Part shown: piece after piece, positions 3,560-64,000 of the stretch
How the letters are laid out: each line of letters starts with the position of its first letter
Position numbering within the stretch: position 1 is the stretch's first letter
Origin: Bryum argenteum
Taxonomy: Eukaryota > Streptophyta > Bryopsida > Bryales > Bryaceae
Reading direction: 5' to 3'
Assembly: GCA_037043015.1 (NCBI GenBank)
Contig: CM073329.1
Location: 12,912,648 to 12,976,647 of the forward strand
DNA: 64,000 nt
Notes under the pieces: generated by a model
Told to the model about the DNA's origin: nothing
The model's input: only the letters and a program-made list of their open reading frames with translations
Databases searched by the model: none
Translations under genes and position numbers: made by a program

Positions 3560-3875
3560 ACACAAGAGTTGTTGATTAGTGTTGCAAATATTAATTGCGA
3601 ACCTTAACACTAAATGTCACACGTTACCATAGTGTTACAACACTAATCTTCAAAACATAACATTAAATGTGAGAACATGCAAACTTTTTTGCAAGTGGAA
3701 GAATGTATTAGAATTGGTGCAAGTGGTGGCTTGAAGAGAAGACAAGGATTTTTAATTGCAAAGGTGGCCCAAAGTGAATACTTATCTCAAAAGAGTTGAG
3801 AAATACTGTAATGGGTAACTTTTGGTAAAGAATGCTAATCTTCATGAATGTAACACTAATCAACAACTCTTGTGT
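3560..3875. mobile_element. MITE with perfect 24-bp terminal inverted repeats
   Basis: The left end (3560-3583, beginning ACACAAGAGTTGTTG) is the exact reverse complement of the right end (3852-3875, ending CAACAACTCTTGTGT). The 316-bp interior is AT-rich, has no ORF, and repeats AGTGTT/AACACT motifs. No target-site duplication is clear. Related but diverged sequence lies near 9060-9190. It sits just beyond the 3' end of the transposase-like gene, but nothing ties it to that gene. Confidence 0.8.
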
Positions 3876-45858: not shown

Positions 45859-48416
45859 TCTTCCACAAAATTTGCACATTCTCTTGGATAAATTCCTTTG
45901 ACCAATTACAAGTGTTTATCGTAGCAAAATTCCAAGTGTCAAGTAAAGCTAGCTGTGAGATATATACACGTAATTTGGATTTTTAAAGAGGAATCTTCTA
46001 CTAATCTTGGTCAACTGGTGGGATTAAGGCATTTGTAATATACTGTAATTACCCCTTCATGACTTGTGGCATGCATGCAAGTATGTTATGGAAGAAGTGG
46101 CACCGGGCAGGGGAATTTGGACTCCACCTGGAAAATTATACCGTATTATTCCTCAAAGATCTCTACCTTTCATTTCATGAGGAACCTCCGAAGCTGCTTG
46201 GAAACAATGGAATTGCAAGCCCAAGCATCTTCGGTGACTCATGCCATTCCATTGTTTGTTTTGTTTGTTGCCATTTGATTGCATGGATGAAGGACCGTGT
46301 CAAGCAAGCCCTGCATTGGAATGATGGAGTGGTTCATTCACGGAAAGTGCCAAAAGTCTCAAAACAGCCCTCGGTTATTGCAAGGTGTAAGTATTTCAAC
46401 TTTTGAGTATTTTTTAGTATGTGACTGTAGGACCTGACTTGTACATGTATGTGTGTATGGAATCTTGAATTCAAATTCCTCACCAGTTGTGAGATCGTAA
46501 TGTTTGAAGCTAAAAAAGAACAAGTTTTTTTTCCTGGTTGTAAAATGGGTTTGAAGTGTTTCGTGAGCCGAACAAACCAATTTGAAGAGTAATTACAAAT
46601 TGAGGCTCTTCAAATCCTTGTTTCTAAGCGGGTTATGATTACGAATATATGATTTTTACCCTTATTGGACCTTTGTCACCTATAGAAATGATTAATTATT
46701 CACATGGAGGTAGGTTGAAATGCAAATACAAAGGTTGGTCTTTGATAATATAAATGGCATGCGAAAAATTCTTGGATTGGAAATGTGAACGTCGAGATCA
46801 TGCTTTGGTACCTCTTCTACGTGTACAATTTCAGTTTTTTGTGAATTTTTTGAAGTAGTGAGATCTAATTGATTTTGGGTAGATTTTGAAAATAAACAAG
46901 CATATATACCGCAGTTTGGGTAGTTTTGGGCACATTTGGAATAATGTTTTCAAACTTTGATCATGGATATCTCTTAAAGATTGAGGAATTTTGAAGCTCA
47001 ATATGAATTTTTAGAAAAGTCTGGAAAATTTCTACATTTGCCAAAAGTTTCAGCTTCATACAATCTATATTTCAATAATTGAGAGCCTCACTAGAGTCAA
47101 ATCAACCTTGTTAGGGCTCATTTTGACATGAGGGGTTAAAAGAGAAATTTGGAGGAAACAAAGAGGAACTCCACCCCAAAAACTCTAATTTGCCTGACTT
47201 CATACTACTTACTAATGGTCTCACCCATCACCACCCTCATTACTCATTCCTTTATCTAGATAGACTTGACCTTCAGTAGTTGCCATCGACTATCTTCTTA
47301 AGAAGTGTTGACTGGCTCAACCCTCCAACCCTACTTGGCTCATTCTCTTAAGAATGGTTGAGATCATTCTCCCTTCCCTCTTCCACCTCTCCAAATACAC
47401 TTCTATCACAAAAAGACATAAAAAGTTGTAGATTCTCCAAGCAAATCTTGCTACAAACTGGATGTATTGTTTTCATTCAACAATACATTGGTTGCTTATA
47501 ATACTATAAAAAAAACTCCAATTTCACGTGATTTCCACATTGATAGTCCCAAAACAAGTCTCCCAAGGACCCAACAATCAAACATTCTCATACAGTGTGA
47601 GGGTTCCCACCTATACAATATTCAACCAACTTTGACCGTTATAATCTCACAAATGAAGAAACATCAACATTTCAAATTTGGAATGCAAGTCATACGTCAA
47701 GTTATCTTTAAATCCTGCAATTGATTTATTTTTTAAAAAATCCTTCAATTTAATTTTTTGAGTCTTGAAGTAAGAGGAGGTCAATTTTTATGCAATTTTG
47801 CACCAAAGATCGTCAAGTGTTGAAATAAACGAAACAAGCTTATATATTTCCCCATCAAGGTCCCCATAAAACAAGTGCAAGTCATTGTCCTAGTGAAAAT
47901 CATTCGCAAATGATTTGCAAGAGTGAAAGCAACAGAAGAAGCACACTCTTTTTGCTTGTTTGGAGGAAGCTATCATGTCATAGAGTTATAGTACATGTTG
48001 CATAATAATTGATTTCACCCTCATCATAGTATGATCTCCTTATTTTGTGGGCACTGAAAAATTATTGATCGGTAGGACTGTCTATACAATCAAGCCTCTC
48101 TACGTCGGTAGCCTTGTCTCCTGTGCACTCTGACAAACATTCATTTTATGTATTTTTATTTTTTTGAGCAAAACGGTTGAAGAATACATCAAGAATTAAG
48201 GCAAGAAACTTGTCTGGCAGTGACAAGTATGATTTATTTTTAATTTTATTTTATATTTTTTTAATTTTTTATATTTTTTTAAATTTTTTTATTTTTGAAA
48301 CAATTAATGTATCAATCAATTGCATGTTAATACACTGGGAACAGAGCACCAGAGCACCCGGCGATGTTTTTTGAAATTTTCTACTACCAAGGTAAGATTA
48401 TGAAGCTACTCCTGCC
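45859..48416. other. Intergenic, one orphan ORF and a decayed MITE
   Basis: The longest plus ORF (46059-46406, 115 codons) has a Cys/His-rich middle but matches nothing I know and is probably not real. At 47620-47830 the sequence is a decayed version of the interior of the TTAA element at 24603. Nothing else is supported. Confidence 0.4.
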
Positions 48417-48646
48417 TAAGGTAGGAGTGGCTAAAACCGTCCAGCCCCAAAATCCGTATGAATTTCAGCTTTGCATACTTGGACTAGTGGTGTAAAATTT
48501 TAATTATTTTCAGATAGTCTGCAAAGCTAGTGCAAATCCATCCCCCAAAAAAATACATTTTTTGAGTAATCCTATAATTTCCTATGATTATTTGAACCCT
48601 ACTGTGCGGTTTTTGGGGCTAAACGGTTTTAGCCACTCCTACCTTA
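48417..48646. mobile_element. MITE, TAAGGTAGGAGT family, copy 3
   Basis: Starts TAAGGTAGGAGTGGCTAAAA and ends CGGTTTTAGCCACTCCTACC plus TTA, nearly perfect inverted termini. It is the closest relative of 44811-45040. Confidence 0.85.
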
Positions 48647-49104
48647 GCTCCTAGGCTACGAAGACACTCCAGCAAGGGACCCCTGCAAGAATTTGAACCA
48701 TCCACTAGGCCTTGAATGTGAACCATACACTACCGTACTCTTCAACGCGTAGACCACAACCTCGAACTTTTACAAGTATGATTTTTCATTCTAGACCTTT
48801 GAGGGTTTAATACTTCAATTTGGACTTATGTGGTATCTTCATAAAGTAATCAACAATTGGAGCATTCTGTGTAGGGCAATTCTCGACGAAAAGGAGATAA
48901 TCTCCCCTACCAATGAATGGTGGAATTTGCGGCAAGGATGTGGAAAATGAGAGGAGTATACATATAATAAAGCTCCGGACCTTTTTAGAGGCCGGCGTGA
49001 CTAAAGTGTTTGTTCGTAATGAAAATGGCATGGTGTCCCCAAACAAAGTGCCTATGTGTAAGTAGAGTATACACATCATTTACCCTTAGTTACGGATATG
49101 GGCA

Positions 49105-49125
49105 CTTTTTAACCCCTAAGTATTA
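49105..49125 (+). repeat. Solo TTAA-type terminus
   Basis: Reads TTTTTAACCCCTAAGTATT, one end of the TTAA MITE consensus. A candidate opposite end (ACCTTTGAGGGTTTAA) lies at about 48795-48810 but in the wrong arrangement. Confidence 0.4.
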
Positions 49126-49569
49126 TTTAAACCCAATATGGGTTTTTTCGATTACGGGCAGCCATTTTGGAGGGGTTTGAAGTAATATTTTTGCTCATGA
49201 TTTTTACAGGATGTTCCTTATACTCCAAAGTGTATGTAGTAAACTCTGCAAAGTGACATTCTAGTTTTAAAGCCTTCATTTAGAAATTTTAGGTTTCAAG
49301 TCCAAAACGGGCTTTTTTAAATAGACTTTTTGATTTTATTTTTTTTAAAGAAATGTGTTCATTGTCAAATTTTTATTCAAGTTCTAAAAGTGACCTAGGT
49401 CAAAACGTTTGTCAATTTCACAAGGGCAACCTCCAAAAATTACAAAACAATCTTTACAATTTCTAGTAGTTTTTGAATTATTTCTTACGAAATTTGTCAT
49501 AATGCAAGATTTTTGAATTTTTTCAAAAAGCATTTTCTCAAACTTATGAAGGCACCCACTCACCATTAG

Positions 49570-49603
<34 letters not shown>

Positions 49604-50515
49604 ATTGGTGCATGTTTTCCTATATTGTTGTTTTTAGACCTTCTTCTAAAAAACAATTCACACAAAGGTCAGAAAACAGAATGAGACTCTAAAATTTTGC
49701 ACGAGGGTACCCAACTTGATTGCCTACATGGAAATAAATACGCCCAAAATGTTCGGGGTGACAAACTTCAACTTGCCCTTGGCACCATTTACACTACGTG
49801 TCTCCGACAATGGCCAAAAAACACTTTTGCATCAACTTTGAACATCACGGTCTCACAAATGGAGAACATCTAACACTTGAAAATTTCAGCCATAGCACAA
49901 AAACAAGTAAAGCACAAGATCCTACGGTTGGAATTCTCATGATAGAAAAAAAGAATGATTCACATGGCCAGGAGTGCACACGACTTTAAAAAGACAATTT
50001 TGAGACTTCTTGCTCCCAAAACAACAAGGAAAGTAAAAATCTCAATTCAAATTAGCTAATCCAATTTGCACTCTAGTAGTCTAGTTTATTATCTTTGAAT
50101 TTCAGATACACTCTTCTAAGAACTTTGCCAAGGACTTGAAAATGTTGTTGGTTTTCCGGACACCCATTTTATGCAGCCCTAGAAACCTGGCCAAGCTTTC
50201 AAAGCATTATAATTTTGCATCATAGATGATACAAATGATTTTGTACCACAAAGTTGAGGGGGTTGTTTAAGTACATGAATCACAGCCTCCCTTCAGCTTG
50301 TCCTTGGGTATTGGTGTATGTCTCTCTCTCAACGTACTGTAATGCTCGTGTGTAGCTTTAGGGCCTCCTTGGTTTATCACTTTATCTCACTAATGGTAAC
50401 TTGAAATTGCAAGTAATTGGAACCATAGTGCAACCATGCACTACGGGAGTCTGCTGAGAAACCAAGTGAATCTCAATGTGAGCAGTTTGTGACGAGTCTC
50501 AACAATGTAAGCAGA
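49126..50515. other. Intergenic with a 32-base A run
   Basis: AT-rich. A homopolymer of about 32 A lies at 49570-49601. A TCCTACGGTTGGAATTCTC phrase near 49920 recalls the TTAA MITE interior. No gene is seen. Confidence 0.45.
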
Positions 50516-50577
50516 GCAGGAGCCCCCGATGGGAGGTATCTCCCTCGGCGGAATCCCCTCCCATCGGGGGCTCCTGC
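50516..50577. repeat. Perfect 21-bp-arm hairpin
   Basis: Arms at 50516-50536 (beginning GCAGGAGCCCCCGATGGG) and 50557-50577 are exact reverse complements around a 20-base spacer. It is GC-rich in AT-rich surroundings. It is not terminator-like for Pol II and has no tRNA features. Confidence 0.85.
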
Positions 50578-50581
50578 GATC

Positions 50582-50717
50582 TAACACACTTTCCGGTTTC
50601 AGCTGCCCGGTTGTTTTTCTTGTAAGGTGCGTTCTGCGGTAATCCCCTCTCTGGAGCGGGCACTACGTGACGGGAGCTCCCGTCAAATGAACGGGCCCGA
50701 AACCGGAAAGTGTGTTA
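50582..50717. mobile_element. Short inverted-repeat element next to the hairpin
   Basis: The ends TAACACACTTTCCGGTTTC (50582-50600) and GAAACCGGAAAGTGTGTTA (50699-50717) are perfect reverse complements. The 98-bp interior is GC-rich and carries a second small palindrome (CGGGAGCTCCCG). With the hairpin, this may be one nested element of about 200 bp. Confidence 0.8.
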
Positions 50718-51059
50718 CGAAAATTGTGTGGATGGGCAAGTTCACAAACGATGGACTAACCGAGTAGTTTATAGTAAACAAGGAAAACTTTTAGAACAAA
50801 AATCTTAAAGTGCTAGAGTGTTTCATAGACCAATCAAGGTATGGTGTACATTTGACCAGGGTTGTCTTATTAGATACAATTTTGGGAATGTCTGTCTGAT
50901 TTGTCGTACTGGACATGTCTGTTAGACGTCGAGTCGACGAAAATGTCGACCGTACCAAAAATTACATAGTAAAAAACTTGCTGAGATTTACCTTGAGGTA
51001 AAAAGCTATTTTCCTACGTGGCGTAGGGTTGATAATGACGTGGAAAATCAAAATACACG

Positions 51060-51400
51060 TCGCGGTGGGCGACCGCGAGTGGGCGACCTCGCTAGGCGAT
51101 CGACGGCCGCACCGGGCGTAACGTCGGTCGCCTCTCTGCGACCGCCGACGCTCCTGGCCGCCATGGAAGGCGCGGCCGGCGGTCCAAGATGGAGACCGGC
51201 GGTCGCCCGGCAACCGCTAGTAGGCGACCGCCCGGTCCGAGATTGGCGGCCGACGATCGCCAGGCGCGTCGTCGGCCGCTTATAGCGATCGGCGGTCGCC
51301 CCTCGCAACCGCTATTAGGCGACCGCCCGGTCTAGTACTTAGCGATCGGCGATTGCCGGGCGTCGTCGGCCGCTTATGGCTATCGGCGGTCGCCACAGGG
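51060..51400. repeat. GC-rich array 1 (GACCGCC/CGGCGGTCGCC motifs)
   Basis: Dense direct and inverted copies of GGCGACCGC, GCGATCGGCGGTCGCC and relatives within about 340 bp. It is far more GC-rich than its flanks. It lies 370 bp beyond the 3' end of the hAT-associated second ORF. ORFs inside it are by-products of the repeat. Confidence 0.85.
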
Positions 51401-51770
51401 GTAGCGCCCATGTGGCGATGTGTGTGGTGACCAGCACCATGGTTGTATATGAAACAAGAAAAATATATTCATATTGGTACAAAATGAGCTTCAAAGCATT
51501 TTTATGAATACCTTTTTATCGGAAACAAGGTCAATGGTGCATTTCATAGTACAAATTTGCTCATGTCTATAATCATAGTATTCATATATATGATGTAACT
51601 ATTACATATACCAAACTATATGTATTATACTCCCGAAACATACTAGGATACCAAAGTATTGTAAGCTAATAGTTGCCCTACTTAGTAAAGTACATTGTAG
51701 TATTGTACCGTGTACTAACAATGAACTTCGTGCTTCCAATCCAAAATAACAAAATTCTAATAACCCGTCT

Positions 51771-52616
51771 TTAGGTATCCTTCAATGTATACGTATCGTC
51801 GCTTGATACTTCATCTGCGTTTGGATCGGTTTCACCTAGAGAGTCATCAGTGCTTTGGTCGCCATCCTCGTCTTCATCCTCTGTCTCATTGCGTACTTCA
51901 CACTCAACCTCACTCGCCAAATTGCGCAATTCCGTGTCCGTAGTTGTTTTCTTGTTCACTGTAACGAGGCGCTTCAAGGGCCGTGAAGCATTAGTGATCC
52001 CGTTTGCGTTCAGTGGTAGATGGCGCATTGTACGTGTATTCGGATTATTGGATGAAGCAATCCCAGCATGGACTTCTTCATGTACGCGTGCTCCTTTCCG
52101 ACATCGTCGATCGTGTGCCTTCCTCAAACGCTTTTGGCCTCGTGTAATACGATTGCGAGGTTGTGTAAATGGCCCGACGTCTCGTGCCACTGCCAATGCC
52201 CGGTTGCATGTTGGACTTGTTGGTTCTATCTTGACCTCCATCTTTGGCAATACCATACGAGTTGTATGGGCCCCTTTGGGTTGGGTAACCCTTGGGAACA
52301 ATTGTTGTAGAGGTACATCGGAGTCATCTCCGTTAAGAGTTGAATTCCTTGATCGAATGGTTGAAACTCTAGGTGACCCCACTTCCATGCAACCTGAATT
52401 GGATACATCGTCAGGTTCCACTTTAATTTGGTCCATTTGAACTCCTGTCGTGGTAACCGTGCCCTTCACACTCTCAAGTTTATCGTCGTTGTTAGAGTGT
52501 GTGGGCGCTTTAAGTGGACCAATGTTCTCTTCATCCATCCGGTTTACCAAGTCTTGTTTCGCTAGGCGGTACTCTCTTGGAGTTGTAAATTTGCCACTCC
52601 TTCTCCTTCGTGTCAT
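51771..52616 (-). CDS. Second ORF of the hAT element, acidic/disordered protein
   Basis: An open frame of 281 codons. Its ATG overlaps the TGA of the last hAT frame by four bases (ATGA). The protein is charged and low in complexity: a basic N-terminus (MTRRRRSGKF), two sumoylation-type motifs (IKVEPDD, VKIEPTSP), a basic middle and an acidic tail (TEDEDEDGDQSTDD). There is no catalytic motif. The coupling suggests either a second product of the transposon or a C-terminal extension of the transposase cut off by a stop. Function unknown. Confidence 0.5.
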   Translation of the reverse strand: MTRRRRSGKFTTPREYRLAKQDLVNRMDEENIGPLKAPTHSNNDDKLESVKGTVTTTGVQMDQIKVEPDDVSNSGCMEVGSPRVSTIRSRNSTLNGDDSDVPLQQLFPRVTQPKGAHTTRMVLPKMEVKIEPTSPTCNRALAVARDVGPFTQPRNRITRGQKRLRKAHDRRCRKGARVHEEVHAGIASSNNPNTRTMRHLPLNANGITNASRPLKRLVTVNKKTTTDTELRNLASEVECEVRNETEDEDEDGDQSTDDSLGETDPNADEVSSDDTYTLKDT

Positions 52617-54981
52617 TTGGCAAATACCGCAAACTGGCGAGGCAGTTGTGGAACATCCTGGTCGTCATCGAACTCAAACGGGTCCTTGACATGAATAGTC
52701 ATGTTTCCTTCGTTGTCGTTCCAATTCTCTAGGTCGTCGTGTTCGCTACCGTCATTGACATAATTGTCGTCATCCGCCTCCGGGTTATCCATGAATACAC
52801 CATCATCCCATTCATTGTCCGGTACATAGTCTTCTTCGTCAGAGTCCTCTTCTTCTAAGTAATTTTCGTACCACGTTCTCGGCGATTTGGTACGTTTCTG
52901 GCGCTCGAGTTTGGCGTTCGCATAGATGTACACAAGGTCCTCTGCTTTGGAAGTTGACAACCGATTCCTCACTTTGTTGTGCACGAAAGAGTACATGCTC
53001 CAATTCCTCTCACATGATGAAGCTGAACATGTCAATGCCAAAATCCTCTTCGCAATTTTTGGCAAGGCATTCCCCGACTTGATGCCACCATTGATGTGGT
53101 AACAAGTCACAGTGAGCTGGATCAGGGGCCTCTGAATTGGTGTTAAATGGACCCGTCCTCTCCTCATATTGTATGAGTTCCCGCACCACTTCCTCATAGA
53201 CCACTCCCATTGGGGCGCTAAGCTTCCTTATGACCCGGTTTAAAGCTCTTTTGCTTCTCCATTGTTTTGAATTGCTCCAATATTTGTCAAATAAGGGTTC
53301 AACAAAGTCAGCTGATAGTGGAGGTGCGTGAGCATCATCTCCCATCGTTTTTGAAATGCATCCTCGTATTTTGTAGCAATGTCGGGGATAGTTTGAATGG
53401 AGGTTCACGCAAAGAGAACACGTGTTCCTTAAGGTCCGACATGATCACATACGCCCAGGGCATTTGGTACTTCGCGTCAAACTCCCGAAGAGCTAGGATC
53501 TTGGTTCAACTACTTTGACAAACTTCGTACAATTCTCCCGAACTCATCGCTCCTAATGCTATTCCGCACATTCCTTGCCTTTGTCTCAGAATCGGTGATT
53601 TATTTTTGCTGTTGAACAATGTTTGGACAAACACATGCCACTCCGGATCGATCACCATGTTGTTCAAAGGTTGTTGTAGCTTTAACAACCGCTCTATCAT
53701 CAAGTAGTTTGTTGCAAATCGAGTCCGAGGTGGTCCCTTGAGCTGCGCTGCGGCAAGCGAGTACTTCTGAATAGAGCAAGGGGGACGTGGGACCCCTTAA
53801 TAAATGTGCACACTCTCTTGGCTTGCTCCACCAAATGCTTAACCCACGCCTCTTTCCCCCAATCTTCCGGAAGGAGGTCTAGAATATGTGCCGCACAACC
53901 TTGTCCATACAAGTGAGGATAGTCTATCGCAACTTCTTCACAAAGACCTAACATGGAGCTTGCATTGTCGGTGCATATCCGCACGATGTTTTGTAGTCCA
54001 ACCTCCTCTATGTACTTCGCCATTTCATTTGCCACATAAGCAATGTCCTTTTTCTTCCTCGTAGTATCCACTCGATCCCAAAAACACCTCTCCCACTTTG
54101 GGCAAACGAGCATCATGTTAATGAGTGGTGCGCTTGTGACATCGGACCACCCATCCGAGCATATTGTTCCTCCGTACTTCTCGATAGAAAGTTTTGTTCG
54201 ATCCTCTACCGACCTTTTTGCATTTTGCCTTCTTCGCATCGAGCATCGTAGTCCTAATAGCATGATACGAGGGTGGTTGATATCCACCAATACCGGCCTT
54301 TGCTGTCTCTTGAACGGCACTTATGAATGTTGGATGTCGTACGACATTGAATGCAATGTTTGCCTCATAGAAAAATGAAGCCCACTTTGCATCCAAATTT
54401 TGCCTAATGGCAAGATCAAAACTATCCTCCATACTCCTTTGCCCATGTCGCCGTCCACTAGAGAGTGTAGAGATCCTTTGTCCATTCTTGCCATGACTCC
54501 CCTTGTTAGAGGATGGCACCTGATTAGACCTTAGGTTAGGGGATGGCACTTGTACAGAGTTGATGCGAGGGGTATCTATGTTCTCTGTAGTTTCCCTTGC
54601 CGCATATGGTATGCCGACATCCACTCGTGAGTCAGGAACAACATCCGCATAAGAAATGTTGTTCTTTGGAACTATCCCTCCGCAGTCACGGAATAGCTCG
54701 AGAACTCCACGGGGCAACCTCGTACACCGGGGTAATGGGGAATTGTGAGGATATCCGAAATGAGCTAATGCTCGTTGCCTTACAAAGACTGTGCTTTTTC
54801 CACAGAATAAGCACACGCGAGTATTTGGCTTGTCGTTCCGTTCCGTGGATACTCGTAGCCACTCGTCCCATATGCTAGTGTCTCTTCTATTATCTAGTAC
54901 CCCGTTGGATTGGGAAGAATGCTCCATGTTCTGGAACCGCACCTCCGCCGCTGCAATGAAACCGGTGACAACAACACGCAC
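52613..54981 (-). pseudogene. Decayed hAT-family transposase
   Basis: The protein is readable only by moving between frames. An N-terminal BED-like finger region (RVCLFCGKS...HFGYPHNS) lies at 54118-54981. The DUF659/RNase H core is at 53700-54320 (GGTICSDGWSDVTSAPL, RICTDNASSMLG), followed by RFATNYLMIERLLKL at 53506-53720. The hAT C-terminal dimerisation region is at 52613-53197 (SASSCERNWSMYSFVHNKVR). At least three frameshifts are visible, including a one-base loss near 53777 between FR and KYSLAAAQL. hAT transposases cut and paste DNA with 8-bp target duplications. This copy can no longer encode one. The acidic C-terminal extension remains open. Confidence 0.85.
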
Positions 54982-55110
54982 TACAAGGACTCAAGTTACT
55001 CTTTGCACATATAGACCGAGCAGGGGGCTTCTCATGGGGAGACCCAAGACAACGGGCCAAGCGCAAAGGAAAGTGGCTTCGAGCCCGTGAACGACTCCTT
55101 ATATACTCCA

Positions 55111-55265
55111 CAGCCAGATCGGCGGTCGCCACAGCCAGATCGGCGGTCGCCCTAACAACAACGCTGTCGCGCCATGTGAACCGGCGGTCGCCCTGGCCTT
55201 GACTTCATCGCGCTAGCTGGACCGCCGGTCGCCCTAGCCCTGACCCAGTTGGACCGCCGGTCGCC
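55111..55265. repeat. GC-rich array 2
   Basis: Contains GATCGGCGGTCGCC twice with a CACAGCCA spacer, then ACCGGCGGTCGCCCT and GGACCGCCGGTCGCC. It lies 130 bp upstream of the hAT frame and about 540 bp beyond the 3' end of orphan copy 1, between the two genes. Confidence 0.85.
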
Positions 55266-55809
55266 ATAGCGATGACAGATTGTTCCGACGAAGAGCACTT
55301 TACTCTCCAAGTCAATATCCATGGTCCACGCAATACAACTATTATTAACTAGAATCCCGGAGACCATGTGGCTCAAAAATGTTTGATTCGCAATAATGCT
55401 TTTCTTTTGAAAAGAAAAAAAAAATAAAAAAATAAAGGGAACATGCGAAGGCAAGAGAGAGAACAATAAGGACTCATATTAGAAACTAGAGTTTTAACTT
55501 CTCTTGCTCCAAATCCAAAAAATAAAGGGATGAATATTGCTCAATCCACGTTTCCTAAATAATTAAGAATGATAAAAATTGCCATGTATCAATGACGGTA
55601 CCTCGGACATTGAAGGTTTTTCCTTTATGCTTATACCACATGCAATAGTGAGATTTCATTCACCAAGAATATTTAAATTGAAGAAAATCAAAAACTTCAT
55701 ATTCACATTCAACGTTTTTGCATACAAAATGGCAATTGCACTTAGTGTTTGGTATTGAGTACACTACTTTTCTACAATTGCTAAAAAAACGTGATTAACT
55801 AACTACCAG

Positions 55810-56535
55810 TCATTCTTCGCTTGGGCCCCCTTCATTGTAAAGTTGGCTTGGCCCCCCTTCTGTACAAACTTGGCTTGGCCCCCCTTCATCAAAATGTGCT
55901 CCACCTTCCTCCATCGTTTGGTTCGGCTCCCCTTCATCCACTTCTCGCCTTTCGGTCCCTTCTTCTTCCGAATCTGACCAAACTATGTCTTCATCATGGA
56001 TTCCTCCTTTGTAACCCCTAGGTGTTGTAAGCCCTTTTCGTGGGTTGGCCGCTGGATAAGGAGCTCGCGGAATATGGGGTTCTGTTGGCTTAATTGTTTG
56101 AGGGGATTTTTTAAACGTCCTCCAATCCACGTCCCTCTGCAAAATTACCTCCGCGTACACCATTTGTGCTATGTTGTACGAAACCTCGTTGCTCACCACA
56201 TGCACACCGGCGTAGAGGAACTTCCACACTTCAATGCATCGTTGCACAAATTCATCGTGATTGCAATAGTGCAAATTTGCGCAATTCAGGCGGCGATGAA
56301 ACTCGTGACGATAGTGTGGAAACAAATGGCCGATGTGGCACCAAGCAATGTACCACTTGCAAGTCTTAAGGGTCCACGGTTCCTCTACTTGCGCCCACCC
56401 CGGAAAAGCATGTTGCGTGGGATCTATGAGAATCTTGTGAAATCTCCTTTGCTTCTTTCCTTTCCTCTTGCGGTCCTTGTCTCTCGCTATCTTCCGCTCC
56501 TGGCTAGGCGTCATGGTCACCCAAATGCTAACCAA
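55810..56535 (-). CDS. Orphan Cys/His protein family, copy 1 (intact)
   Basis: An open frame of 241 codons; the likelier start is the ATG of MTPSQERK near 56514. The N-terminus is Lys/Arg-rich (RDKDRKRKGKKQRR). A conserved core follows: AFPGW, WYIAWCHIGHLFP, HEFHRRLNCANLHYCNHDEF, VQRCIEVWKFLY, EVSYNIAQMVYAEVIL and DW. The C and H residues are kept in all three copies, so a metal-binding fold is possible. The C-terminus is acidic with EGGPSQ repeats. I do not recognise the family. It may be an accessory protein of a mobile element, since arrays flank it on both sides. Confidence 0.65.
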   Translation of the reverse strand: MVSIWVTMTPSQERKIARDKDRKRKGKKQRRFHKILIDPTQHAFPGWAQVEEPWTLKTCKWYIAWCHIGHLFPHYRHEFHRRLNCANLHYCNHDEFVQRCIEVWKFLYAGVHVVSNEVSYNIAQMVYAEVILQRDVDWRTFKKSPQTIKPTEPHIPRAPYPAANPRKGLTTPRGYKGGIHDEDIVWSDSEEEGTERREVDEGEPNQTMEEGGAHFDEGGPSQVCTEGGPSQLYNEGGPSEE

Positions 56536-56681
56536 GGAAGAAAAATTTTAAACTAACTCAAAACAAAGTTATATCTATTCCGTGGACTAACACAGAATTT
56601 AGAAAACTCGAAAATCGGGCAGCACGTATGTGTAAAATGCACACGTGTGGCACGTGTGTGCCAATCACCGCACGCTCTAGC

Positions 56682-56730
56682 GCTCGAACAAGCAGGCGGC
56701 AACCAGAGGTCGACACCAGACAATGCGCAA
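56682..56730 (-). promoter_or_regulatory. Conserved upstream block, copy 1
   Basis: In sense orientation it reads GCGCATTGTCTGGTGTCGAC, then TGGTTGCC and GCTTGTTCGAGC. Matching blocks lie at 61465-61511 and 63490-63535, each between a GC-rich array and an orphan ORF. It may be a promoter or a transposase-binding site. Confidence 0.6.
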
Positions 56731-56797
56731 GGCCCGACACGTGGAGGTGAAAAATGGCGACTGGCGGTGTCCGCGCGCGTATATGTAACCCTGGTTC

Positions 56798-57075
56798 TAG
56801 GGCGACCGCCGATCGAGCTGAAGGGCGAGCATCGGTCGCCAGGGCGACCGCCGATCCAGCGGATGGGCGACCGCCGATCCAGCGGATGGGCGACCGCCGA
56901 TCCACCTGGTGGGCGACCATCGGTCAGAGGGCGCGACCTCCAAATGGGAGGGCGCGACGTATGCGTGGGCGCGACCGACGGATCGCGCGACCGCGATCAA
57001 TCGTGACGGGCGAACGTCGGTCGGCCGGGCGACCGCCGATCCGGTGGTGGGCGAACGTAGGTCACTGGCGACCAC
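56798..57075. repeat. GC-rich array 3
   Basis: Consecutive copies of GGGCGACCGCCGATCCAGCG with ATGGGCGACCATCGGTC and GGGCGAACGTCGGTCGGCC variants. It lies about 260 bp upstream of orphan copy 1. Confidence 0.9.
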
Positions 57076-57212
57076 GGTCCACTCATGGGCAAGGACTAAC
57101 CTTCCTCCGAGCGTGTTTGTCAGAATTATCAAAGTAGTAACGAATTTATATAATGACTTTTGGTGGCAAGTATTTGGAACCATCAAAACTAAAATAAAAA
57201 AAAAAAAATAAA

Positions 57213-57215
<3 letters not shown>

Positions 57216-57302
<87 letters not shown>
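57216..57302. repeat. AT dinucleotide microsatellite
   Basis: About 43 uninterrupted AT units follow an A-rich run. Confidence 0.95.
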
Positions 57303-57304
<2 letters not shown>

Positions 57305-57820
57305 GGCAATAATGTGATTTTAATACTTGGACTTCCTAATAATGACCCTATGAAAATGATCGAATCATAAAAAAAACCATAGGGAAATCGCATCCATATG
57401 TCATAATTTAGGTGCACCCACCACAACTTCGAATGATAAGGGAAAAGAGAATGAAAGCATACAGGAGGTGATACGAACACTTGAATTAGGTAATAAGGGC
57501 CTCATAAATGTAATGGAAGAATTCATAAAACCATGGGAGAATGCGAACTAAGTGGTTGAGTTTATATGGGGATATTTGAATTGCGGGGTCTGAAGCACGG
57601 GGGAATATGTAAATATATAAGTAAAAAGGGAGTAGAAGGGGTGTTGATAACTTTCCTAGGTGATTCATATTGTGTAAAAAATATAATATAAATCTTAGGG
57701 GCACAGGAGGAATGAAAGTATTTTTCCCGAATTTCCAAAAATTAAATAGTCATGTGAAAGTAGGCGGTGTGCGCACATGCATACGAAAACAAAGTGGGGA
57801 ATGTAATTTGAACATTTGGA

Positions 57821-58043
57821 CTACACTAAATAAGTACATTAGTGTTAGATTTTTATAAGATTTGAAAATGCTACAAGTTTTTACTTTTGGGATAAAAATT
57901 TTACCTAGAGTATCGATTCCAATACTATGTAAGGATCCCCATCTTCACCTTTGTAGAGGGTACAAATATTGACTAATAGTAAAAACTTATAGCCTATTTA
58001 TGTATATTAGTGTATCTAACCCTAATCTACCTATTTAGTGTAG
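57821..58043. mobile_element. MITE, CTACACTAAAT family, copy 4 (inverted)
   Basis: Starts CTACACTAAATAAGTACAT and ends CTACCTATTTAGTGTAG. Its interior runs opposite to copies 1-3 (GAAAATGCTACAAGTTTTTAC first). Confidence 0.8.
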
Positions 58044-58834
58044 GTAATATGGATCATATAAAAATAATGGAACCATCAAAAATATTATAGGACAACCTGT
58101 ACTATTTTTCCCAAATTAATATAGAATTTTCGAACTAAGTAGAGCTTTAAATAATAGATAAAAAATAGTTAAATGGAGAGAAAAAACATTTAAAAAAGAA
58201 CTGGACTATGTAATAACTACCTTATGAACATGATGGAGCTATAAAAAAAAATCGTTGGAGTAAAGGATCTATAGGGTGGATTTTGGTTGCAAGCACTTAG
58301 AAACACCAAAACTTCAAAAAATAAGAAAAAATAGATGAAGGAGGTAAGAGGACAATTTAAACCCTTAGACTACCTAATGATGACCCTATGGAAATGATGG
58401 TGTTATTTAGAAAATCGTGGGGATATGTCATCTATAGGTCATCATTTACTTGTAAGTCATTTGAATGAGTAGAATATTGAATGATATTCGGAAAATAGAT
58501 TTGTGGAAAGAGATAACGATTTTAAAACTTGTGTTGACTAAAAAAGACCTTATAAAAATTATGGAAGAACAAAATTTCCCGTAAGAGAAACGTATCTACA
58601 TGTTATGATTTACTTTGACTTTGTAGGATGCTAAGTAATAGAGGAAGTTATACTAAAGGGGGGAGGAGGTGGTTTTATTATTTTCTCTAACCGTATTAAA
58701 TATATTAAATCATGAAAGAAGCCACATGGAACTTGGATTTACATGGAAGGAAATACTTGGTGTTAATTTGATTCAACCTTGGCATGGTATAGGTCTATAG
58801 GATACTTGGTGTTAACTTCATTCAAAACCTCCAA
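58044..58834. other. AT-rich intergenic
   Basis: No gene is seen. A phrase GATACTTGGTGTTAA occurs twice near 58760-58815, just before array 4. Confidence 0.4.
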
Positions 58835-59105
58835 ATCGCGCGACCGCCAATACAGCGGATGGAATTAACGTCGGTCGCTAGGGCGACCGCCGATCCGGTG
58901 ATGGGCGAACGAGGTCGGCTGTGGCGACCGGCGGTCACGTGATGGGCAAGCACCAAGGAGAAAGTGTCCGCGAGCCTCGCGCACCCCTCCGCTCGGGCGA
59001 CCGCCGATCTAGGCGATGGGCGAACGTCGGTCGCTAGGGGCGACCGCCGATCCAGCTCATGAGCGAACGACGCCGGCGAGGCGGCCGGCGGTCACGTGAT
59101 GGGCG
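58835..59105. repeat. GC-rich array 4
   Basis: Copies of GGGCGACCGCCGATC, AACGTCGGTCGCTAGGG and GGCGGTCACGTGATGGG. It lies about 850 bp from the stop of the coiled-coil ORF at 59956. Confidence 0.85.
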
Positions 59106-59955
59106 CGAATATCCGCTTCCCCCCTTTTGCTACAAATCTTTTTTCGCATATTTGAAATCATGTACGAATCATTGCCTTTCGAGGTTTTGGGGGGTTTGTA
59201 AAAATATTCATTGACTCTAAATACTTGCAACTAAATCCCACCATATATTTATACGTAACTTCAACAACTTAGTTACGATTCCAAATTTTTACAAATTATT
59301 TATCATTACTTCATCGTGGATTAATACTAATCAAAGCTTTCCAAAATTCAATATCATTATATATACATATGGAATGGTATACACGACATAATTTTCTAAA
59401 AGACCACCTTTGTCCAAAGTATCCACCAACCTACCAACATACAAACCTACCAACTTAAATAATTACCAACCTACATACCATTCTAAGAACCTTTTTTTAG
59501 ATATTTCCAAATCATGCATTTAAAATAAAAAATAAAAAAATAAAAAGAATAAACAAGATGATTAAAATAACACCGTGCGCATATATACAAATAATAAACA
59601 TAACATCGTTCAACGGGTATCTTACTAGTAAAAACATATCATATAATCAAAAAGATACATTGTATAACATCCATTTAGCACTTATCTCCCAACTTTCGGT
59701 TCACAAATAAAATAAAGTAAATGGATATAACCAACACACCAACGTCTTTCTAAAATTTGATTCCGCTTACTCTAATCTTCTTCCATTGTACTTTAGATTT
59801 TTTTAGATGGTACCACTCGACATTTCTCCTTTGTCTTATTTGCAATACATAGATCTTCGATCCTTGCATTTAAGAACCTCTCCTCTTCTCATGAGCACAA
59901 GTAGCTTTTTGACCAACTCCTCGGTTGTTTCATTGCTTTGTGAACTTTGACCCTC

Positions 59956-60525
59956 TTACGCAATATCCACGGTTCCATCTATTCTATTGAGGACTAACTT
60001 TTCCTTGTTCCCCTTCAATCTTTTTGATGCTAGGTTCACCCTTTCGATCTCAGCTCTCAAGGCATCGCATGCCGAAATGAGTTCCTTTAGCTCCTTCTCA
60101 AAATGACCTTGGTCCTTGGCTCCTTCAACCATAAAATCCTTCTCGCTACCCCAATCATTGACCACAAACCATTCGTCGACGCGCTTGTATCTCCTATGCA
60201 CATCCTCGAAATGTTTCATCTTCTTTATGAGCTCTTCCTCATAATCGACCTGGTCCGATGCAACCAGAGCTAGGAGAACATTCGTCGCCTCCTCTTGGAT
60301 CTTCATTTTTGCATCCTTGATTACTTCTATGTCATGTTGGAGTTCAACACACTTTGCCCGTTCGTATGACAAAGCATGAAACAAATATTCATAATCCTCA
60401 TAAGCCTTGTTCAACAACTTCATCCACGAATCATCGTTTTCATTCGGGCGTTTCGCTTTGAAGACTACTTGAACTTCCTTCTCCAGCTCTACTTCTTCAT
60501 TTCCTTCTCTTTTCGGGTCGTTCAA
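59956..60525 (-). CDS. Coiled-coil protein, likely second ORF of orphan copy 2 unit
   Basis: A 189-codon ORF. The protein is strongly charged and rich in Glu, Lys and Leu. Heptad-like stretches (ERAKCVELQHDIEVIKDAKM, KKMKHFEDVHRRYKRV, KELISACDALRAEIERVNLA) predict long coiled coils. No catalytic motif is present. It lies on the same strand downstream of orphan copy 2 and inside the same array pair. It may originally have been fused to copy 2 before frameshifts. The family is not recognised. Confidence 0.5.
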   Translation of the reverse strand: MNDPKREGNEEVELEKEVQVVFKAKRPNENDDSWMKLLNKAYEDYEYLFHALSYERAKCVELQHDIEVIKDAKMKIQEEATNVLLALVASDQVDYEEELIKKMKHFEDVHRRYKRVDEWFVVNDWGSEKDFMVEGAKDQGHFEKELKELISACDALRAEIERVNLASKRLKGNKEKLVLNRIDGTVDIA

Positions 60526-60896
60526 TCGTTTCCATTGGATATTCTAGAGTCCCATCCTCTACGCTAACATTTGTTTGAGGAGAGGCGCTCATAGCGGGCC
60601 GAACTATAACTTCGGGTGTTCCCAAAGTACAAGCACCAAACATTGCTTCAACCTCCATGTATTCAATGACATCCGCTTCTCCTTACATTCGTAGGTCCTC
60701 GATGTGCTTCAGCGGGTGCATCAATCACATCCAAATCTTGCACGCTTGTTTCACCCACATGAAAGTGTTCAACGCCACCAATAGAACCTTCTACAAGAGG
60801 AGTATGATGCTCCCTCTTCTTAACCTCTTCTTCATCGAATTAGGATTTACCCAAACATACATCATCAAGATCCCCATCTTTCCGATGCCTCACGCC

Positions 60897-61380
60897 GTAA
60901 GTCCTTCTCGTGGGTTTTACATCAATGGGGCTCTTGGAATATCTTGCTTGGTTGGAAGGAAGAATTGAGGCGATTTTTTCATTGAGCTCCAATCCACCAC
61001 TTTCTCCAATATTACCTCTGCATACACCATTTGAGCAATATGATACGAAACCTCGTTCTTGGTGACATTCTTGCCTTTATAAAGGAACCTCCACACTTCA
61101 ATACATCGTTGCACGAATTCGTCATGCTTACAATTGTGCAGATTTGCGGCATTTAATTTCAAGTGCGTCTCATGTCGAAAGTGTGGAAACAACTGGCGAT
61201 GTGGCACCGGGCGATGTAATTCTTCATTTGTTGTCGACTCCACACACCCTCTTCGGTCTCCCACCCCGGAAAAGCGCGTTGAGTGGCATCTTGGAGAATA
61301 CGGTGATTCCTCTTTCGTGTTTTTCCTCTCTTCTTGCGTCGCTCCCCAAGTACTATTTTACGTTCCGCAATTGTAGTCAT
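60897..61380 (-). pseudogene. Orphan Cys/His protein family, copy 2 (frameshifted)
   Basis: The first frame starts at ATG 61380 (MTTIAERKIVLGERRKKRG) and reaches NYIARCHI. The reading frame then slips by one base near 61210 and resumes as QLFPHFRHETHLKLNAANLH, NCKHDEFVQRCIEVWRFLY and EVSYHIAQMVYAEVILEKVV. Comparison with copy 1 (CHIGHLFP) shows a one-base loss. A further shift appears near 60917, after IPRAP. The core is the closest relative of copy 1. It cannot encode the full protein. Confidence 0.75.
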
Positions 61381-61464
61381 TGTTACCTCCGATCACGGAA
61401 ATGCCGCTATGATGTGATGTTAGATACAAAACACCAAAAATAGTGCGATCCACGTTGGCCTCCA

Positions 61465-61511
61465 ATCGAGCAAGCAAGTGGCAACTTTGAGTCGACACGG
61501 ACAATGCGCAA
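61465..61511 (-). promoter_or_regulatory. Conserved upstream block, copy 2
   Basis: In sense orientation: GCGCATTGTCCGTGTCGACT, then AAAGTTGCCACTTGCTTGCT and CG. It is the counterpart of the blocks at 56682 and 63490. Confidence 0.6.
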
Positions 61512-61579
61512 ACACCACGGCACGTGGGACCGAAAAAAAGTGACGACTACGGCCAATTACGATTGTATTTAACCTCTGT

Positions 61580-61765
61580 GGCGGGCGACCGGCGGTGTCC
61601 GGCGACATCGTTAGGGCGACCCCGACCCAGTGTTTCTTGCAAGACTCGCTCGGGCGACCGCCCGGTCAGTGCAGCGAGACCTCGGGCGACCGCGTGTGCG
61701 GCCGAGAAGAGTTTTGATCGGCCCTCCGGAGCGCCAGGCGACCGGCACTCTGCAGGGCGACTTCG
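61580..61765. repeat. GC-rich array 5
   Basis: More diverged than the others: GGGCGACCGGCGGTG, GGGCGACCGCCCGGTC and CGGGCGACCGCGTG. It lies 200 bp upstream of orphan copy 2. Confidence 0.75.
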
Positions 61766-61769
61766 CGAG

Positions 61770-63068
61770 AGCTCCCGCTCTTTTCTTGGATCCTCTTTAT
61801 GCAATATTCAAATTTTGAATTAACCGATTCAAGCATCTCCCCATTCCCCCTTCAATCCCCCTCATCCCCCTCATCCCCCTCATTCCCTCTCATTCCCACT
61901 CACTTCTTCCTATATCTCATTCCCAATTGAAAATGATTCTCATGGTCATGGGCATTTTGCCAAGAGCGGTGACCATGATACATGAAAAATGATTTTATGC
62001 TCATTGGATACTCTTGTGGTGTAATATGGATTTAGATCGATACAAGTTTAATCACAATTTACAAAATTATAATTTTCAACATTCTCAGAATTCTCAACAT
62101 AAAATACTCATCAAATATTGGTTCCAAAAGTACGCTCAGGAATGGGTTGATAAGAATGTCCGCAAATCATTAGTCTTCTTGACTTCAAATATTTACCTTC
62201 ATATACTGGTCACTCATTTTTTCTCCGAACATATAATATGTCATGATATATCACCTTTTAATTTGGTAAGCAACTATTTCTCTCAGTGCTTTCTAGGGTA
62301 TATGCACTAATTCCATTCACTTAATTGTATTTCAAGGCCTTATTATTTGACTTGCCAAAATTTTCAAATTCCTCCCCCCACTCAATTTAACCAATTTCAT
62401 AATGTTATGAGCCCATAAACTTATTGCAAGGATAATCTATCAGTCGGATATTATATACGGAGATCTTATAATTTATTAAAGGCTCCATTTGATATAAAAG
62501 AAACTTAGAAATTGTTCTTGAATGTGATGTTAAAATATGAGGTGCAGTTTTGGTACAGAAATGGTATCTTATCTAGATGCTAGGAATTGACTACCTTGGA
62601 TTACATTCTTAGATTGTAGGTATTGAATCGTTAGATTCATTAAAGTGTTTTCATGCATTGAAGAGGCTGATGCTCTATAAATGAATTCACATTTTATCAA
62701 TTATTATAACTGATTAGGCACGATATGACTTCTTAAAATATACACCATACAAAATAATATATACCATTCATGCCTACAAAGAGGACGAGGAACTCTCACC
62801 CCATCCTTCCTCCCATTCATTATTATCCATTTACACATCTCTTGTCCATTTCTTAGGAATTGAATGATCATAAAATGGGAATTATGGGACCCACGATCCG
62901 AAATTCCTACCCTATGCATACCTTCCTAATTTTTAAATTAATACATTATAAACTAAAGGGCTCTTTTATTCCTCCCCCATCCAATATTCATCCTCATCTC
63001 ATGATTCTCATCCTCGTATGAGCTGCTATGAAACCTGATGCCCTCGCATTCAACATAAAGAGGTGAAA
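61770..63068. other. AT-rich intergenic
   Basis: Short ORFs only. A pyrimidine-rich CCCCCTCAT repeat lies near 61840-61900. No gene or element ends are recognised. Confidence 0.45.
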
Positions 63069-63425
63069 TAGGGCGACCGCCGATTCAGCTCATGGGCGAA
63101 CGTCGGTCGCTAGGGCGATCGGCGGTCCAGCTTTGGGCGAACGTCGGTCGCTAGGGCGATCGGCGGTCCAGCTTTGGGCGAACGTCGGTCGCTAGGGCGA
63201 CCGCCGGTCCAGCTCATGGGCGAACGTCGGTCGCTGGGGCGATCGGTGGTCCAGCCAATGAGCGAACAACGGTCACAAGGCGACCGCCGGTATACCTTAT
63301 GGACGAACGTCGGTCGCTCATGGGCGAACGTCGGTCGGCCCCGAAGCGTCGGCGATACGAGATAGATAGGGCGATAGTTGGGGCCGTGGCGGCCGGGTGT
63401 GCACATTTTGTAGACCGCGGTCGCC
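63069..63425. repeat. GC-rich array 6, 41-bp tandem units
   Basis: The most regular array. A unit of about 41 bp (GGGCGATCGGCGGTCCAGCT, then TTGGGCGAACGTCGGTCGCT, then A) is repeated several times with small changes. It lies about 140 bp upstream of orphan copy 3. Confidence 0.9.
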
Positions 63426-63489
63426 TTATCATTATGCTTAAGAACGCGACGGGCAGTCCATTTTCACACTTTGCGAGTTCGTCCTTTTC

Positions 63490-63535
63490 GCGCATTGACT
63501 AGTATCGACTTCAGAGTTGCTGCTTGCTTGCTCGT
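63490..63535 (+). promoter_or_regulatory. Conserved upstream block, copy 3
   Basis: Reads GCGCATTGACTAGTATCGAC, then TTCAGAGTTGCTGCTTGCTT and GCTCG. It matches the blocks of copies 1 and 2. Confidence 0.6.
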
Positions 63536-63569
63536 AGAGGGACTTTGCGTTTTTCTACGAATTTTTCTT

Positions 63570-64000
63570 ATGGAGGCACTACCTGTTGTAGCGGGCACAT
63601 CCATGGTGCGCCATGACCGAGGTCGGATTGCGAAGAAGCGCAGAGCTATCTTGAAGAATCCAAAGATAGTAGCGTTTAGAGGATGGGAGGAAGAGAGGGG
63701 GCCGTGGTCTTTTGCCATATGTGAGAAATATGTGGAGTGGTGCCACATCAACAAGCTCTTTCCTCTACATTGGCACAATATGCATCGGCACAAGAATGAA
63801 GCTAACCTCCGAGAGTGCCATCATTACGATTTCAAAGCGAGATGCATATATGCTTGGCATATGATATACGGTAACAACCATATTTTTAAATATGAGGTTC
63901 CCTACTTTTTGGCACAAATGGCATATGCGGAAATGATTCTCGGGAAGAACGTGCATTGGTGGACGCATCCACGTTTGCCTATACAAGAGAAGACCAAACC
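63570..64000 (+). CDS. Orphan Cys/His protein family, copy 3 (3'-partial)
   Basis: Open from ATG 63570 to the end of the window (143 complete codons, no stop). It aligns with copies 1 and 2 over the core: AFRGW, KYVEWCHINKLFP, HNMHRHKNEANLRECHHYDF, ARCIYAWHMIY, EVPYFLAQMAYAEMIL and NVHWW. It is clearly more diverged than copies 1 and 2 are from each other, yet keeps the Cys/His positions and the tryptophans. This suggests selection on the protein. The N-terminus is basic (GRIAKKRRAILKN). The gene runs off the window. Confidence 0.65.
   Translation, partial: MEALPVVAGTSMVRHDRGRIAKKRRAILKNPKIVAFRGWEEERGPWSFAICEKYVEWCHINKLFPLHWHNMHRHKNEANLRECHHYDFKARCIYAWHMIYGNNHIFKYEVPYFLAQMAYAEMILGKNVHWWTHPRLPIQEKTK

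Follow-up and report, generated by a model that had tools for sequence, protein, structure and literature searches.

A large multigene hAT-superfamily transposon with orphan-domain genes and dyad arrays in the moss Bryum argenteum

We analysed a 64,000-nucleotide stretch of the Bryum argenteum genome (assembly GCA_037043015.1, contig CM073329.1, positions 12,912,648 to 12,976,647 of the forward strand), hereafter the window, which is C9:12912648-12976647 of the searched genome G000 (258.8 Mb, 25 contigs). The end of the window and the DNA directly beyond it (L081; L081:5460 is window coordinate 69460) contain a transposase gene, four paralogues (A, B, C and D) having in common an orphan domain of ~130 aa, a kinase gene (E), GC-rich arrays and a shared 45-bp block. 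A preliminary description had reported three diverged orphan proteins, each downstream of an array and of the block. We found that the three proteins, the arrays and the block are, with near certainty, parts of the interior of one large transposon of the hAT superfamily. The element is 18,604 bp long, from window position 50857 to 69460, i.e. 5,460 bp beyond the window end; the portion in the window (50857..64000, minus strand by its transposase) has boundaries common to other copies. Gene D and the kinase past the window end, the hAT transposase at 51771-54981 and the sharp ends of a single element were not part of the preliminary description.

From the left end, the gene order is transposase (-), B (-), A (-), C (+), D (-) and kinase E (+), and it is conserved across the copies. 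The transposase gene (51771..54981, minus strand) encodes DUF659, the hAT dimerisation region and an acidic C-terminus; it is frameshifted in the window and has long open frames elsewhere. Pfam matches of the window copy were 2.6e-27 for DUF659 and 1e-5 for Dimer_Tnp_hAT, and those of a less broken copy (L074, a 908-aa transposase) were 4.3e-38 and 4.5e-6, respectively. The N-terminus, read by eye, is C-x2-C...H-rich, and Pfam gave no BED finger in the transposase.

Gene B (55810..56514, minus strand) is intact and encodes 234 aa comprising a basic N-terminus, the orphan domain and an acidic tail. Gene A (about 59956..61380, minus strand) has the orphan domain and a coiled-coil-like region. 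It is frameshifted here, its listed rows are 55-61% identical to B, and in other copies the open frames that contain the match are as long as about 530-550 aa. Gene C (63570..64000 and on into L081, plus strand) combines the orphan domain with a coiled-coil-like tail; a frameshift shortens the window copy, and intact copies have 441 aa (444 in one). Judged from the sequence, the layout of A seems to be the same as that of C, and an environmental protein of 563 aa (P0011, 57% identical to B) is a close relative of A. The N-terminal domain of gene D lies at L081:1968-2354 (minus strand). The full-length form of D is represented by P0012, an environmental protein of 777 aa that comprises the orphan domain, a coiled coil, a RING-H2 finger and a C-terminal part that is conserved; comparison with it showed that the window D is without the middle part. 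Matches to P0012 in the genome cover the entire protein, with identities of up to 96%, and 10 of the 67 listed D rows were full length with no stops. The window copy of kinase E (L081:3139-4690, plus strand) is frameshifted; the protein has about 530 aa in other copies, and 5 of the 80 listed rows were near full length, also with no stops.

Alignment of the flanks of copies gave both the element ends and the target-site duplications. The left terminal inverted repeat CAGGGTTGTCTTATTAGA (50857..50874, plus strand) has its complement closing the element at L081:5460, and an identical 8 bp, CATTTGAC, flanks the element on both sides (50849..50856 on the left; L081:5461-5468, window coordinate 69461-69468, on the right). 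The junctions therefore read CATTTGAC followed by CAGGGTTGTCTTATTAGA and, at the other end, TCTAATAAGACAACCCTG followed by CATTTGAC, with the ends inverted and the duplication perfect. Both ends were read in seven copies, the window's among them, whose lengths range from 17.6 to 19.9 kb. All seven have inverted CAGGGTTGTC ends, and the 8-bp duplication was perfect in six of them, the exception being the copy at C1:26.0 Mb. The terminal repeats are at least 8 bp long and fit the plant hAT consensus [T/C]AGNGNNG as given in a survey of these elements (PMC6027215).

We located both boundaries by DNA searches, each of which scored only part of the candidates. On the left (query window 46001-52000), the start of similarity was common to 39 of 39 other scored copies: 35 aligned in one piece starting at query 4850-4858, and in the remaining four a second piece began at 4833, 4856, 4857 and 4857. 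On the right (query beyond the window), 26 of 28 other scored copies reached the element end, 18 in one piece ending at query 3957-3964 and 8 getting to 3958-3967 via a second piece; two stopped at 3719, and none of the 28 passed 3967. The element is a hAT because of its transposase, with DUF659 and the C-terminal dimerisation region, its ends and its target duplications. It moves as a unit, as seen from the hAT ends, the 8-bp duplications, the left end common to 39 copies and the right end common to 26 of 28.

The linkage of the genes across the genome was counted in 67 of the 154 B matches, 45 of the 151 kinase matches and the first 36 of the 67 D rows, with C and transposase tables that are subsets of the listed matches; the genome searches score part of the candidates, and the copy lists are the matches listed. 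A transposase was found within 8 kb of 56 of the 67 B copies, always on the same strand and mostly at 2.0-2.4 kb, compared to a mean of 1.0 and a maximum of 4 in 500 random draws (approximate lengths were used for C2, C3 and C6, and the transposase list held one B position). Gene C lay within 20 kb of B in 49 of 67 cases, always on the opposite strand and mostly near 7.2 kb, and E within 30 kb in 28 of 67. For 40 of the 45 E copies a C gene was present upstream at up to 40 kb on the same strand, the usual distance being about 5.8 kb, and a divergent kinase lay within 6 kb of D in 28 of the 36 best-listed D copies (ten of the kinase positions came from another kinase match table, and two C-gene rows were taken out of the kinase list before the count). 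Among the transposase rows at 74-100% identity, B or C lies at most 12 kb away in 32 of the first 33 listed.

A second hAT family, with DUF659 at 47-50% identity and mostly long open frames, is present in the genome (C5:2290562, C6:4144023, C3:207682 and 30 more listed rows). Orphan genes B or C were found within 12 kb in none of these 33 listed rows; for this comparison of the two families, as for the array-proximity counts below, the gene lists were hand-picked subsets. Contig C1 (44.1 Mb, 17% of the genome) holds 44 of the 67 best-listed B copies and, by eye, most of the decayed B copies listed. This contig may be a sex chromosome, or one with low recombination, on which old transposons persist.

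The three open frames that the preliminary description had grouped by a common motif are all present and homologous (B and C are 45% identical over 119 aa), and a profile search brought 29 environmental homologues of the orphan domain. The identities of P0008 (92%) and P0012 may mean that the source of these proteins was this species or a close one. Nearly invariant positions (B numbering) include A36, F37, G39, W40, W47, W58, C59, H60, I61, F65, P66, R69, N80, L81, C84, F89, R92, C93, Y101 and E122. The structure model of B is confident over residues about 31-160 (block means 90-98) and gives a compact helical domain. The charge is +10 in the N-terminal 30 residues, 0 in residues 31-140 and -13 in the tail. 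A Foldseek search with this domain model gave no match at E <= 10 in the PDB or in viral models. The orphan parts of A-D have no real match in Pfam or NCBIfam (single-ORF matches above E 0.05 were treated as chance), and a profile search of the PDB gave insignificant matches only, to the coiled-coil tail (E 0.15-0.2). The model of full-length D was poor (mean pLDDT 46), and its one Foldseek match, at E 9.1, was judged meaningless. The preliminary description knew no family for this protein, and that view stood; a known family was matched by the element as a whole (hAT) and not by the orphan protein. Going by these sequence comparisons, the orphan domain is a new protein domain family.

The paralogues are strongly diverged, with pS of 0.67-0.94 and pN of 0.22-0.45. 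These values point to purifying selection between them, which suggests that the orphan family has been kept functional over a long time. A dN/dS comparison of copies had also been proposed; among near-identical copies it is a weak measure (0.58 for 22 B copies and 1.09 for 7 C copies), these values being as expected if most changes post-date insertion. The 29 other fetched B copies are 94-97% identical to the window B. Open full-length frames occur in 22 of 30 fetched loci for B and in 7 of 30 for C. The identity of the B copies, their open frames and the perfect duplications all speak for recent movement.

The C3H2C3 ligand pattern of a RING-H2 finger is complete in all seven long D-type proteins. 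The Pfam zf-RING_2 match is above the cut-off in P0018 and P0033 and below it in P0012, P0019, P0021, P0024 and P0029. By this ligand pattern, D looks like a ubiquitin-ligase-like protein. For kinase E, part of the window copy matched Pkinase at 9.1e-10, as did, at 9.1e-12, the environmental homologue P0036, whose motifs FAAK, HNDLSPSN and DWG provide the ATP lysine, the HxDxxxxN loop and the DxG. There are 64 environmental kinase homologues at E <= 1e-10 (P0036-P0099); 56 of them have a loop of the type H/Y-x-D-x-x-P-x-N, and after this loop 49 have DWG and one has DFG. The DWG kinase is a distinct family and could serve as a marker of related elements elsewhere. Among the best-scoring matches to P0018, six further loci with relatives of the RING protein D (identity 32-37% over most of the length) were noticed at C1:12584003, C3:2465836, C1:9042929, C1:30254520, C1:42679095 and C1:28272982. 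These six lie, by eye, more than 40 kb from any listed hAT row and perhaps belong to a second element family. At a further D-like locus (C1:33936082), a divergent kinase match is about 2.6 kb away.

The arrays of the preliminary description are real. Their repeat core is the dyad GACCG(C/G)CGGTC (GACCGSCGGTC). At <=1 mismatch the window has 23 dyads, all in 51174-63292, as against 0.18 expected from shuffles. At <=2 mismatches, 53 fall inside the element and 3 in the other 55 kb of the window and L081. The dyads form eight clusters: two subterminal ones (about 0.3-0.5 kb from the left end and 0.2-0.35 kb from the right), four that precede the transposase, B, A and C respectively, a single one common to D and E, and an extra one. 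The left subterminal GC-rich array (51061..51403) has its counterpart in the right subterminal array (L081:5098-5275), and both lie about 185-550 bp inside the termini. Upstream arrays are located at 55108..55262 for the transposase, 56759..57070 for B, 61560..61760 for A (the weakest, with 2 dyads at <=2 mismatches) and 63069..63460 for C, and at L081 about 2512-2944 for the divergent genes D and E. The internal array at 58843..59110, between A and B, has no gene assigned and contains 6 dyads at <=2 mismatches. The arrays that had been noticed on the 3' side of two copies do exist, but they belong to neighbouring element genes, with the exception of this internal one. A perfect (AT)43 microsatellite is also present inside the element (57217-57302), in a ~1.7 kb AT-rich stretch between two arrays.

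By eye, a TATA-like box lies at or overlaps the gene-side edge of the array in five of the six genes, with none clear for C. Next to the transposase array, CCTTATATAC (55097-55106, reading GTATATAAGG on the minus strand) directly adjoins the repeats, and the TATA-like box of B (56780-56789, minus strand) is in the gene-side edge of its array. Copies lacking arrays were looked for and none was found: array motifs are present upstream in every one of the 30 B loci and 30 C loci fetched (1-9 each; 0-0.05 in shuffles), their positions and numbers varying between copies. The 13-mer GCGACCGCCGGTC occurs 1370 times genome-wide (674+696), as against once for its reversed control. The 100 listed places of this 13-mer all fall in the initial 4.3 Mb of C1; an element gene lies no more than 20 kb away from 78 of them, compared to 19% for random points, and 22 have no listed element gene at that distance. 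Two runs of exact GCGACCGCCGGTC, nearly all at 21-bp spacing, stand out: ten at C1:1081632-1081889, and seven at C1:3388162-3388300, with no listed element gene within 20 kb of the latter.

The shared block also proved to be real. The window contains three occurrences of its form GCGCATTGNC, one each in front of B, A and C, as against 0.33 expected. In all four paralogues A-D the 45-bp block, GCGCATTGTC..GTCGAC..GTTGCC..CTTGCTCG, separates the array from the start codon. It is at 56684..56728 (minus strand) for B, where it reads GCGCATTGTC..GTCGAC..GTTGCC..CTTGTTCG, at 61466..61509 (minus strand) for A and at 63490..63534 (plus strand) for C. It is weakest in D, as aligned with the D upstream region beyond the window, and is not clear in the transposase or kinase promoters. 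The block is retained though the paralogues A-D are near or at synonymous saturation, and its GCGCATTG (<=1 mismatch) is kept upstream in all 30 B and all 30 C fetched loci.

Elsewhere in the window, an ORF of 685 aa at 13433-15490 has DUF4283, which we take to be LINE-associated in plants, and two ORFs at 32651-34837 match two halves of Pfam Branch (Core-2/I-branching); both features agree with a plant host. Rfam gave no match at gathering scores within the window, and a reading of the region as an RNA feature was dropped.

The arrays are at the promoters, near both ends and mostly near elements, and for these reasons we infer that they are putative sites of a dimeric DNA-binding factor encoded by the element. 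Since arrays stand at every promoter and near both ends, one such factor could switch on all the genes together. The reading that we hold to be somewhat better than an even bet is that of a giant multigene hAT whose promoters carry putative sites for a factor that the element itself encodes; our first candidate for this factor is the orphan domain of A-D. The transposase would cut at the CAGGG ends and insert with an 8-bp duplication, as in the hAT family. The array-binding factor would mark the ends, tell the element from host DNA and keep the element from silencing, in the manner of VANC in VANDAL elements and of TnpA in Spm. The basic N-terminus and the compact helical domain would suit the orphan-domain proteins to this role, and the acidic tail of the short B form could be activator-like. 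The RING-H2 protein D and kinase E may act on host or element proteins by ubiquitination and phosphorylation. The element thus looks equipped for the control of its own expression, and possibly of its host. A stronger version is tentative, and we would sooner doubt than adopt it: the extra genes would form a virus-like set, with array-binding regulators running an element-wide regulon and anti-silencing at GACCGSCGGTC, and with the RING ligase and the kinase disarming host silencing or switching element proteins.

The binder of the arrays could also be the transposase, which we rank second to the orphan-domain proteins. The same giant hAT would then have arrays serving as subterminal sites through which the transposase also regulates the genes, and A-D, the RING protein and the kinase would be effectors of host pathways acting off the DNA. 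In favour of this, arrays are found not only at promoters but also close to both ends, binding to subterminal repeats is a property of transposases in this superfamily, the orphan domain is unlike any known DNA-binding fold in the Foldseek search, and a RING finger and a kinase imply protein targets. However, the hAT family at 47-50% identity has no orphan genes within 12 kb in its 33 listed rows, and the 22 unexplained places of the 13-mer are not near its matches; this argument is weak and indirect, because the places span the first 4.3 Mb of C1, where one match of that family is listed. We consider this account rather unlikely.

That the extra genes come from the host and were picked up passively, as Pack-type cargo that does nothing for the element, is improbable. 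Kinase and RING genes are common in hosts, and the capture of gene pieces is frequent in plant DNA transposons. Passive cargo does not fit the order and orientation kept over dozens of copies, the persistence of full-length, single-frame D and kinase genes, the purifying selection on the paralogues, the one motif common to the promoters, or the environmental homologues that retain the RING ligands (7 of 7) and the kinase loop (56 of 64). The preliminary description took gene, array and block, repeated in both orientations, as a small mobile element with array-type ends; mobility is upheld, but the arrays are at promoters and inside the termini and not at the ends, the copies sit at fixed spacing within an 18.6-kb hAT with CAGGGTTGTC ends and 8-bp target duplications, and a stand-alone gene and array element is thus ruled out by ends and linkage, leaving this idea hardly any credence.

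hAT elements are regarded as small and mostly single-gene. What is known in the present case is a hAT, identified by transposase, ends and duplications; what is new is its size, the five extra genes and the protein domain family. It is like other plant hATs in its DUF659 and dimerisation domains, in the terminal inverted repeats that follow the consensus and in the 8-bp duplication, and differs from them in being 18-20 kb long with six genes, five beyond the transposase. The longest plant hAT consensus in the consulted part of the survey cited above is 7144 bp, and that part gives no hAT in the single moss examined (PMC6027215). A hAT with a kinase, a RING protein and paralogous orphan genes was not found in the open-access literature, a scope that leaves subscription papers and preprints mostly outside. 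With six genes in 19 kb, among them its own kinase and a ubiquitin-ligase-like gene, the present hAT shows signs of recent activity; it also contributes a protein domain that had no solved relative in our searches.

Spm/En (CACTA) elements resemble the present one in that TnpA is an accessory protein with repeated sites near the ends and the promoter, and differ in having one promoter and subterminal sites only and in belonging to another superfamily. In Teratorn (180 kb), a piggyBac-like transposon is fused with a herpesvirus. Together with other giant DNA transposons, it is comparable as a large multigene cut-and-paste element in the description available (PMC10175614); it is different in that nothing viral was seen in the genes of our element, most of which were not run against a viral library.

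A published parallel is that of the VANDAL elements of Arabidopsis and their VANC proteins. In the published account as consulted, VANC21 binds YAGTATTAY motifs that form arrays in non-coding DNA of VANDAL21, the region upstream of VANA21 among them (PMC5735166), and CG methylation is lost locally as a result (PMC5735166; also in PMC13317346). Both systems have tandem arrays of a short motif in their own non-coding DNA, including upstream of genes, array copy numbers that differ between copies, and extra protein genes beside the transposase. Motif arrays in element non-coding DNA, the VANDAL-type trait, are thus present here, their role as targets being putative. VANDALs are MULEs, whereas the present transposase is of the hAT type, so that by transposase our element is not one of them; the motif is a GC-rich dyad here as against YAGTATTAY there, and A-D, which have no Pfam or NCBIfam family, are set apart from VANC without a direct sequence comparison. 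If the arrays are bound by a protein of the element, this would be a further case, after VANDAL and VANC, of a plant transposon that couples arrays to accessory proteins, and sequence-specific anti-silencing would become testable outside Arabidopsis.

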